64,000 nucleotides of DNA from Neoalteromonas arenosi. Lineage in GTDB: Bacteria > Pseudomonadota > Gammaproteobacteria > Enterobacterales > Alteromonadaceae. A program made the translations under genes and the position numbers. The notes below the pieces were generated by a model, which was not told where the DNA came from, made no database searches, and saw only the letters and a program-made list of their open reading frames with translations. Location of the stretch: assembly GCF_030362855.1 (NCBI RefSeq), contig NZ_JAUCBP010000006.1, forward strand, positions 158,892 through 222,891, written 5' to 3'. The first letter of the stretch is position 1; each line of letters begins with the position of its first letter. Shown one piece after another: positions 6,896 to 9,285 of this stretch.

Positions 6896-7570
6896 TTATT
6901 GGTTGGCCAGCGCTTGACGATGCAAGATCGCAGAAAACTCTTCCATAAAGATGCCGTAGTTATTCTCAATCTTTTCCACTTGATTAGAGAACCGGTTATA
7001 GGCAATCACCGCAGGGATTGCAGCAAATAGGCCAATTGCTGTCGCAATCAAGGCCTCGGCGATACCTGGTGCAACCATAGCTAATGTGGCTTGCTGAACT
7101 TGGCCTAGTGCAATAAAGGAATTCATGATCCCCCACACAGTGCCAAACAAGCCTATGTATGGGCTGATCGAGCCGGCCGTGGCTAAAAATGGTAGGTGAT
7201 GTTCAAGATTATCAATTTCACGTGACATGGCGATACGCATAGAGCGGTATGTACCATCGACGATTGACTGCGTGGCCGCACTGCTCTTGCGCAAACGCAC
7301 AAATTCTTTAAAACCGGCGCAAAATATGGTGCCCATACCATCAACGCTCTGGCGTGCAGAGAGTTCGGAATACAGCTTATTGAGATCAGCGCCAGACCAG
7401 AACTTATCTTCAAAAGCGATCATTTCTTTTTGTGCCCGCTTAAGAGCCGCATTGCGTTGGAAGATGAACGCCCAAGATACTACCGAGATGGTGATAAGCA
7501 GTAACATCACCAACTTTACTACTAGGCTCGCCTGCATAAACAGGCCGATAAACGTGAGATCAGTCGACAC
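6896..7570 (-). CDS. tolQ: Tol-Pal motor subunit TolQ
   Basis: TolQ is an ExbB/MotA-family proton channel with three membrane helices: about 13-35 ([19 protein letters not shown]), about 130-160 and about 165-190. Hallmarks are [20 protein letters not shown] and [21 protein letters not shown], which line the channel with TolR. At 224 residues it is of normal length. Its start overlaps the ybgC stop by 11 bp, so the two are translated together. Confidence 0.97.
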
Positions 7571-7979
7571 GTGTTAATTCCCCTAAAATTGCCCTTGGAA
7601 TTCGCACAGGTTTCATGCTGTCCAAATTGACACAAGCGACGAGTATTTCTGCTTCGGCCACCAGCTGTTGCTTTGGCCCTTTTATTATTTGTTTGAATGT
7701 CAAACTAGCGCCTTTGCAGTTTACTACCTCACTATAAATACTCAACAGTTGGTTAAACCGGCCTGGCGCATGGTTATGCATTTCAACTCGTTTGACGACA
7801 AAGCCTGTAGATTGTTCCATTAATTTGTCTTGCTCAAAGCCCAATTCACGCAGCCATTCTGTGCGGGCGCGCTCAAAAAACTTCAAATAGTTAGCGTAAT
7901 ACACAATGCCACCGGCGTCGGTGTCCTCGTAATACACGCGAATTTGCAGTTTATGCGGGTTGGATGAATAATTACTCAT
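7560..7979 (-). CDS. ybgC: Acyl-CoA thioesterase YbgC (Tol-Pal associated)
   Basis: YbgC is a hotdog-fold acyl-CoA thioesterase, the first gene of the tol-pal operon in most gammaproteobacteria. The 139 residues hold the signature [19 protein letters not shown] with the catalytic Asp, followed by the [13 protein letters not shown] helix. Its physiological substrate is still debated (short acyl-CoA or acyl-ACP in phospholipid metabolism). The operon promoter must lie in 7980-8100, but I could not fix its boxes. Confidence 0.95.
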
Positions 7980-8138
7980 AATTAGTTTTTCGCATCGTTC
8001 AACAAGACATGTTGTAATAAAAGCTTAATGTAACCAAACAGCAAAAGCCTACCGTGCATGACATACACAACTTATTAATAGAATAAACACTTTTTTAACA
8101 CATTATATTTTCTAATGATAAATTCAATTTATTCTCAA

Positions 8139-8166
8139 TTGTCAGCGGCGTTTTAGTCGATATAAT
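8139..8166 (+). promoter_or_regulatory. Strong sigma-70-like promoter of a candidate small RNA
   Basis: TTGTCA (8139-8144), a 16-bp spacer and a perfect TATAAT (8161-8166) are followed by GCGCGC. Transcription would begin near 8172 on the plus strand. No plus-strand gene follows. Confidence 0.7.
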
Positions 8167-8171
8167 GCGCG

Positions 8172-8278
8172 CATCTGTCACCAAGACATTCCGTTTTTTT
8201 GTTGACATGAGTTCCCTGGATTTATTTCCTTAAACACTAGTTGTTTACTTTGCCCGCTCACTAAGCGGGCTTTTTTTT
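8172..8278 (+). ncRNA. Candidate Hfq-type small RNA between ybgC and ruvB
   Basis: About 107 nt run from a predicted start six bases after a consensus -10 to a strong intrinsic terminator ending in eight T. Both neighbouring genes are on the minus strand, so the transcript has no coding target. A small stem TGTC-accaa-GACA lies near the 5' end, and a T-run and A/T-rich single-stranded segments lie in the middle. The long terminal U-run is what Hfq-bound RNAs use. An eight-codon frame (8207-8233) lacks a ribosome site and is not called. I do not recognise it as a known family. Confidence 0.6.
8252..8278 (+). terminator. Intrinsic terminator of the candidate small RNA
   Basis: GCCCGC, a 7-nt loop and GCGGGC are followed by TTTTTTTT. 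The T-run is only on the plus-strand side, so it is directional and does not serve ruvB. Confidence 0.85.
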
Positions 8279-8280
8279 GC

Positions 8281-9285
8281 CTATTGCTTAGGTTCAAAAC
8301 CAAAGTGTTGATAGGCTCGTTGAGACGCAACACGTCCTCGCGGTGTGCGCTGCAGGAAGCCTTGCTGGATCAAGAAAGGTTCCAACACATCTTCAATTGT
8401 GTCTTTTTCTTCACCGATAGCTGCGGCTAAATTATCCAGTCCAACCGGACCGCCATCAAACTTATCAATAATAGCCATCAGCAATTTGCGATCCATGTAG
8501 TCAAACCCTTGTTGGTCGACATCAAGCATATCCAGCGCCGCAGCAGATACCTGTTGGTCAATGGTGCCGCTGGCTTTAACCTCAGCATAGTCACGCACCC
8601 TGCGCAACAGGCGGTTTGCAATACGCGGTGTACCGCGAGAACGCGCGGCCACTTCGGCTGCGCCTTGTTCATTGAGATCCATATTTAAATATTTTGCGCT
8701 GCGCTTAACAATCTCGGTTAAATCGCGAATATTGTAGAATTCAAGCCGCTGCACGATGCCAAACCTGTCGCGTAATGGCGACGTTAAGCTCCCCGCGCGG
8801 GTCGTCGCACCCACTAAGGTAAACGGGGGTAAATCGAGCTTAATCGAACGCGCAGCGGGTCCCTCACCAATCATAATATCTAACTGATAATCTTCCATGG
8901 CTGGATAAAGTATTTCTTCAACCACCGGGCTCAAGCGGTGGATCTCGTCAATAAACAACACATCGTTTTCTTCTAAGTTGGTCAGTAGCGCGGCTAAGTC
9001 ACCGGCTTTTTCTAATACCGGACCCGAAGTGGTTTTGATATTAACGTCCATTTCATTGGCGACGATATTCGCAAGCGTAGTTTTACCCAACCCTGGCGGT
9101 CCAAAGATAAGCAGGTGATCGAGCGCATCTTGGCGCTTACGCGCGGCTTCGATGAATATTTCCATCTGCTCACATACATGTGGCTGCCCGGTATAATCAG
9201 CTAACAATTTGGGTCGAATAGCGCGGTCAACAGCTTCGTCGTCACCTTGACTTACAGCGTTTATAATTCGATCAGCTTCTATCAT
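8281..9285 (-). CDS. ruvB: Holliday junction branch migration ATPase RuvB
   Basis: RuvB is the AAA+ hexameric motor that drives branch migration with RuvA. The 334 residues contain Walker [12 protein letters not shown] (about 61-71), Walker B DEIHRLSP, the sensor [18 protein letters not shown] and a C-terminal winged helix ([12 protein letters not shown]). Normal length. It is the last gene of the aspS-nudB-ruvC-ruvA-ruvB run, 11 bp after ruvA. Confidence 0.98.

Follow-up and report, generated by a model that had tools for sequence, protein, structure and literature searches.

A conserved small RNA gene between ruvB and ybgC in Alteromonas-type bacteria, with a predicted GcvA operator and a probable GcvB-like role

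A predicted small RNA gene between ybgC and ruvB

In the window, the 64,000-nucleotide stretch of DNA analysed here, ybgC (7560-7979) and ruvB (8281-9285) both lie on the minus strand, as the earlier note had read them and as NCBIfam confirmed. On the plus strand between them stand a −35 box, TTGTCA (8139-8144), and a −10 box, TATAAT (8161-8166); the whole promoter, TTGTCA-N16-TATAAT (8139-8166), agrees with the consensus at 11 of 12 positions, and relatives keep the −10 box together with TTGT or TTGA at −35. Downstream follows an intrinsic terminator (8252-8278, plus strand) with a 7-bp GC stem and a 5-nt loop (GCCCGCT-CACTA-AGCGGGC, 8252-8270) that runs into eight T (8271-8278), a T-run found beside the stem solely on the plus strand. 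Both signals are present as first described. With the transcript start assumed at 8173, 7 nt past the −10 box, and the end set by the terminator, the predicted small RNA (8173-8278, plus strand) would measure ~106 nt, in keeping with the ~107 nt originally estimated. A predicted 5′ stem-loop (UGUCA ... UGACA; 8174-8210, plus strand) would sit directly 5′ of the conserved core, and arms resembling it, which may likewise pair, are visible by alignment in several relatives. Elsewhere in the window, three tRNA genes lie near its start on the minus strand (1274-2786).

These signals carry little weight by themselves. A consensus scan of 2.5 kb returned 7 promoter-like sites (shuffles: mean 4.0, s.d. 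2.6) and 2 terminator-like sites (mean 2.6, s.d. 1.9), counts within the shuffled expectation, so consensus matches alone prove nothing. None of 200 shuffles folded as well as the RNA (z = −3.9), whose main predicted stem is the terminator. We accept the gene as real because it is conserved, not because it matches consensus boxes.

The RNA is conserved across Alteromonas-type bacteria

Of 98 relatives compared at the DNA level, 27 gave matches. RuvB and/or YbgC/TolQ were encoded within the 3 kb retrieved at 22 of 29 loci, on both sides in 20 of those. We aligned 23 loci and built covariance model R1 from 22 of them (alignment A1), leaving out one weak locus (L025). This core model matched 237 of 295 genomes of the window's family, mostly once per genome, and gave no match in the other 58. 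At the level of the order it matched 24 of 197 genomes, 13 within the family and 11 outside it, in families f15 (5), f20 (4) and f6 (2). One of the two f6 matches, L104, resembles by eye a terminator-only chance match. Across 84,980 named species genomes, a separate scan by pattern yielded 116 stretches, of which 97 resemble real copies and 19 seem to be chance. In 95 of the 97 copies, ruvA/B or tolQ/ybgC lies within 3 kb, and the RNA is antisense to these neighbours in all 95; the terminator is present in 94 of these 95 and in the 2 further copies, for which no such neighbour was found. Among the matches listed (80 of 116), carriers include Alteromonas, Pseudoalteromonas, Bowmanella, Salinimonas, Alkalimonas and Aestuariibacter. 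Boxes and stem proved to be conserved in the alignment as well, where the earlier note had named their lack of conservation as grounds for giving the idea up. One genome has an additional, weaker version of the core, GTTCCCTGC...TTTCCTTC followed by a terminator, which lacks the GcvA repeat described below (L106; G139, contig C1, 229438-229538) and is possibly a paralogue or a chance match.

The genomic setting varies at the edges of this distribution. Copies in f20 lie at ruvB-ybgC as in the window. At all five f15 loci, no ruvB, ybgC or tolQ match was found within ~1.5 kb on each side, and Pfam, applied to one of the five (L098), identified its neighbour as tamB. The remaining f6 locus, L105, has a motY-like neighbour and a YbgC homologue ~1.1 kb upstream of the RNA.

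Three sequence blocks are conserved in the core: block A, GUUCCCUGGA (8211-8220), nearly invariant and a probable pairing seed; block B, UUUCCUU (8225-8231; CUUCCUUC in many relatives), which is complementary to purine-rich ribosome-binding sites and may act through them; and the GU-rich block C, CACUAGUUGUUU (8235-8246; ACUUGUUGUUU or ACUUGUUGCUUU in many relatives), all on the plus strand. Across copies, GUUCCCUGGA, CUUCCUUC, (CA)ACUUGUUG(U/C)UU and the terminator are kept. RNAalifold supported the terminator both on alignment A1 and on 20 transcripts; beyond it, only a weak GGA/UCC pairing emerged on the former and short weak stems on the latter. In 8 of 22 sequences, both partners of the innermost terminator pair are changed. 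One candidate hairpin, CAACACUUGUUG, is frequent yet lost in Pseudoalteromonas (CAACUUGUUG), and we therefore make no claim for it.

Could the transcript instead be a leader or attenuator, or encode a short peptide? A sub-threshold match to the Trp_leader model (31.7 bits, gathering score 41) would suit the former, but that match is mainly terminator-based, and what follows the terminator on the plus strand is antisense of ruvB. As for coding, the last ATG within 60 nt 5′ of the core falls in different frames among 93 copies (49, 32 and 3 copies; 9 without an ATG), so the core seems non-coding. We regard either version as scarcely credible. The locus has what is expected of an independent intergenic small RNA (sRNA) gene: its own promoter, its own terminator and a conserved non-coding core. 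The earlier proposal of an independent plus-strand gene has thus gained strong support from conservation, with the transcript itself standing as a prediction, and we take the gene to be real and conserved across marine Alteromonas-type bacteria.

The covariance search that the earlier note had called for placed no Rfam family above threshold in this stretch, and likewise none at the loci of nine relatives, in line with the earlier note, which could not match the RNA to Spot 42, SdsR, CyaR, Qrr or similar RNAs. The best lax matches in the window stretch were Trp_leader (RF00513, 31.7 bits) and MicA (RF00078, 30.8 bits), both below their cut-offs of 41; the likeness consists of the terminator and a few 5′ letters. 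The sRNA family is absent from Rfam 15 and, as defined here, could enter it. Among the titles and abstract openings listed in our literature search, none names the RNA, and the papers covered include none in which 'small RNA', 'ruvB' and 'ybgC', or 'GcvB' and 'Alteromonadales', occur together; PMC11882849, in the part available, deals with the Csr sRNAs of Pseudoalteromonas.

A GcvA-type operator accompanies the RNA

Alignment of the loci revealed a repeat, ATTAGTTTTTCTAAT, 5′ of the promoter. In the window this is a predicted GcvA site, IR1 (ATTATATTTTCTAAT, 8102-8116), which agrees with ATTAG-N5-CTAAT at 9 of 10 arm positions and is centred at 8109, about −64 relative to the assumed start at 8173. 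A weaker second site (IR2-like, 8123-8138, ~−43) is tentatively suggested by its conserved right half, CTCAAT; the consensus of this region in relatives is AATTTT.CTCAATTG. Over the 50 copies with a 44-nt spacing, the shortened consensus reads ATTAACACATTAGTTTTTCTAAT...AATTTT.CTCAATTGTG...TATAATGCGC. Excerpts of PMC5002191 give ATTAG-n5-CTAAT as the GcvA inverted repeat, place the repeats of Escherichia coli gcvB at −65 (IR1) and −43 (IR2), and describe activation of gcvB by GcvA with glycine.

The spacing is fixed across the family of copies. Among the 94 of 97 copies that could be scored (3 had too little upstream sequence), 91 carry IR1 at 8 or more of 10 positions, 43-48 nt before a −10 box; the same arrangement occurred at 0 of 19 chance-pattern loci and in 155 of 1,880 shuffles. 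Outside the window's family, IR1 is present upstream at 8-10 of 10 positions in 10 of 11 loci, all except L104, including all five in f15. That the f15 copies, away from ruvB, ybgC and tolQ, still keep IR1 indicates that the repeat belongs to the RNA. The same observation bears on the idea that the divergent ybgC-tol operon is what the repeat and boxes control, the plus-strand RNA being a by-product. In most copies the region does lie upstream of ybgC or tolQ, and even L105 in f6 has its YbgC homologue ~1.1 kb away; however, the five f15 loci keep the repeat upstream of the RNA with no ruvB, ybgC or tolQ match, and the RNA core is nearly invariant, which together make this account highly improbable.

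The same repeat recurs at gcvA. We searched ten genomes, nine of them picked as sRNA carriers, for ATTAGTTTTNCTAAT with at most one mismatch and obtained 49 sites, compared with 53 for the reversed control; one-mismatch sites being no commoner than the control, we place weight only on exact sites and on fixed spacing. Of 13 exact sites, 6 lie at the sRNA, 6 upstream of gcvA and 1 near an sdaA-like gene. Because the search pattern was taken from the sRNA sites, matches there were expected and the gcvA sites are the finding; the window's own IR1, at 9 of 10, is not among the matches of this search. The six gcvA sites precede a LysR-type gene adjoining kdsA (the latter named by eye), and NCBIfam identifies the LysR-type protein of the window's own genome as GcvA (432.9 bits, cut-off 288). 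Close GcvA homologues occur in all 30 genomes examined. A start could be parsed for gcvA in 26 of them (the other 4 were left out), and the repeat is present at 8 or more of 10 positions upstream of the gene in 24 of these 26, with none found at that threshold in the other 2. In the window's own genome (G000), gcvA lies on contig C7 and the sRNA on contig C6.

LysR-type sites have T-N11-A in common, and excerpts of PMC3658693 give T-N11-A for GcvA. A conserved trans-acting sRNA might accordingly use the repeat under another LysR-type protein of similar specificity, a reading that the shared T-N11-A and the control-level frequency of one-mismatch sites would allow. Against it, the sRNA and gcvA account for 12 of 13 exact sites across ten genomes, and the geometry equals that published for E. 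coli gcvB (PMC5002191, in excerpt); we give it a small chance. Since the regulator site and its position match those of gcvB, we infer that activation by GcvA under high glycine is the likeliest control of the sRNA.

The region on the other side of gcvA shows some resemblance to the sRNA promoter. Ungapped comparison of the promoter divergent from gcvA with that of the sRNA gave 40-48 of 72 identical positions in the window's genus and 32-38 of 72 in five other genomes, all figures without a shuffle control. On contig C7, a gene divergent from gcvA (L302:1681-1974, plus strand) encodes a secreted-looking protein of ~98 amino acids with no Pfam match, and its promoter has IR1, the spacing and the −10 box in common with that of the sRNA. 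Open reading frames of similar size occupy this place, which is that of gcvB elsewhere, in other genomes.

No GcvB over cut-off in 59 genomes of the window's family

In enteric bacteria, GcvB acts as a hub in controlling amino-acid uptake, with repression of amino-acid and peptide transporters that depends on Hfq. Part of this picture comes from PMC3658693, excerpts of which describe how GcvA with glycine activates gcvB and how GcvB downregulates transporter genes. The GcvB model (RF00022) was not among the window's matches at E ≤ 10, and under stricter filters it exceeded its cut-off in 0 of 59 genomes of the window's family; sub-threshold matches in 9 of the 59 (27-38 bits, cut-off 42) are taken as chance. 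Three overlapping matches of this kind (31-38 bits, cut-off 42) lie in G039 (contig C6, 1589707-1590338), ~8 kb from the sRNA locus, and are probably repetitive DNA. Among the 98 relatives, 10 have GcvB over cut-off. All 11 GcvB loci scoring at least 41.7 bits adjoin gcvA; a weaker match in f15 (L041, 38.2 bits) is not beside it. A lax Rfam scan of 17 of the 30 gcvA loci found GcvB only in the control, L342. In the samples, the families with GcvB over cut-off (f5, f8, f9, f10, f12, f18 and f21) and those with the sRNA (f1, f15, f20 and f6) do not overlap.

The window RNA and GcvB are alike in design. In both, a GcvA inverted repeat stands ~65 nt upstream of the start of a sigma-70-type promoter, and both are free-standing sRNAs with a U-rich terminator and with pyrimidine-rich and GU-rich blocks. 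Of the 11 GcvB control loci, 5 have the repeat at −65 to −67 relative to the model start and the others have it at different positions; the model start may differ from the transcript start. The window RNA nevertheless goes unmatched by the GcvB model, lies away from gcvA, has another block order and is ~106 nt long, compared with 149-212 nt for the model matches at the 11 GcvB loci. The conserved GU-rich element AUGUUGUGUUUGCA, R1 of GcvB, occurs in 11 of 11 control sequences, whereas the window has only CACUAGUUGUUU; another GcvB element, UGUUGUGUUUGC, bears a weak likeness by eye to block C. Kinship in sequence was considered and dropped. At 9 of the 11 GcvB loci, the 3′ end drew 13-26 bits from covariance model R1, whose best non-self match in the 64-kb window reached 15 bits, but a terminator-free core model, R2, found no similarity at the GcvB genes of the 11 loci, so we attribute the R1 scores to a common terminator type and claim no homology.

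Targets and proposed mechanism

The earlier note had suggested, as guesswork, envelope genes as targets, given the adjoining Tol-Pal operon. This suggestion found no support beyond position: the f15 copies have none of ruvB, ybgC and tolQ nearby, and it is the predicted GcvA operator, not the Tol-Pal neighbours, that stays with the RNA, which points to glycine and amino-acid physiology. Nearly invariant pyrimidine- and GU-rich blocks 5′ of a U-rich terminator would suit an RNA that depends on Hfq and pairs with ribosome-binding regions, and an Hfq-dependent regulator, suggested by the U tail and the conserved blocks, is plausible. Exact copies of CCAGGGAAC, the complement of block A, numbered 30 in four congeners, compared with 19 for the reversed control; four of the 30 are the sRNA itself or the places of its orthologues where present, and among these sites none was both convincing and common to gene starts. 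Duplex energies for genes of an SDF-type symporter and of peptide-binding (SBP_bac_5) proteins, for rpoS and for gcvA were not consistently above those of 42 background starts; this comparison is weak, as a heuristic picked the gene starts and the background was computed with the own-genome sRNA alone. The strongest duplexes were with rpoS in G001 and G002 (equalled by 0 of 42 background starts) and with one SDF gene in G026 (1 of 42); in the window's own genome, rpoS and the SDF gene were ordinary (18 and 13 of 42 background starts, respectively, at least as strong).

A rival reading is an ArcZ-like sRNA. ArcZ activates rpoS and answers to oxygen, and an RNA of this kind would do the same instead of responding to glycine. 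The conserved core contains UUCCCUGG, which also stands in ArcZ as its seed, followed as there by a terminator hairpin; two matches to the ArcZ model, L050 and L051, contain TTTCCCTGGTG; and the rpoS leaders of two congeners stood above the whole background. The ArcZ model (RF00081), however, found nothing in the own genome at E ≤ 0.001 and is absent from the window's lax matches, own-genome rpoS is ordinary, and the neighbours, location and promoter architecture differ. Among the relatives, RF00081 matched 3 of 98, none over cut-off, and the L050 match (60.9 bits) adjoins an ArcB-like gene by eye. We judge an ArcZ-like role improbable.

The RNA at ruvB-ybgC is probably a GcvA-controlled, trans-acting sRNA that acts like GcvB, without detectable kinship to it in sequence. 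In this best explanation, GcvA, the LysR-type product of a gene elsewhere in the genome, would bind the predicted ATTAG-N5-CTAAT site at −64 and, when glycine is abundant, switch on transcription of the sRNA, as it does for gcvB in E. coli. The U-rich terminator tail of the ~106-nt RNA could load Hfq, and blocks GUUCCCUGGA, CUUCCUU(C) and CUUGUUGUUU may pair with ribosome-binding regions of mRNAs, lowering translation, most likely of genes for the uptake or metabolism of amino acids and peptides. For several families on the Alteromonas side of the order, the balance tilts towards a loss of GcvB, with a non-homologous sRNA of the same operator geometry in its place at another locus. On this reading, the regulator would have been conserved while the hub sRNA under it was replaced by a non-orthologous one. 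If the RNA is a GcvB counterpart, it offers a handle on the tuning of amino-acid and peptide uptake in Alteromonas, Pseudoalteromonas and their relatives, and a testable case in which an sRNA is replaced while regulator and operator geometry persist.

The single exact site away from both the sRNA and gcvA (L301; G026, contig C4, near 1094233) places a GcvA-type repeat just 5′ of a gene that by eye resembles L-serine dehydratase, possibly a further GcvA target.
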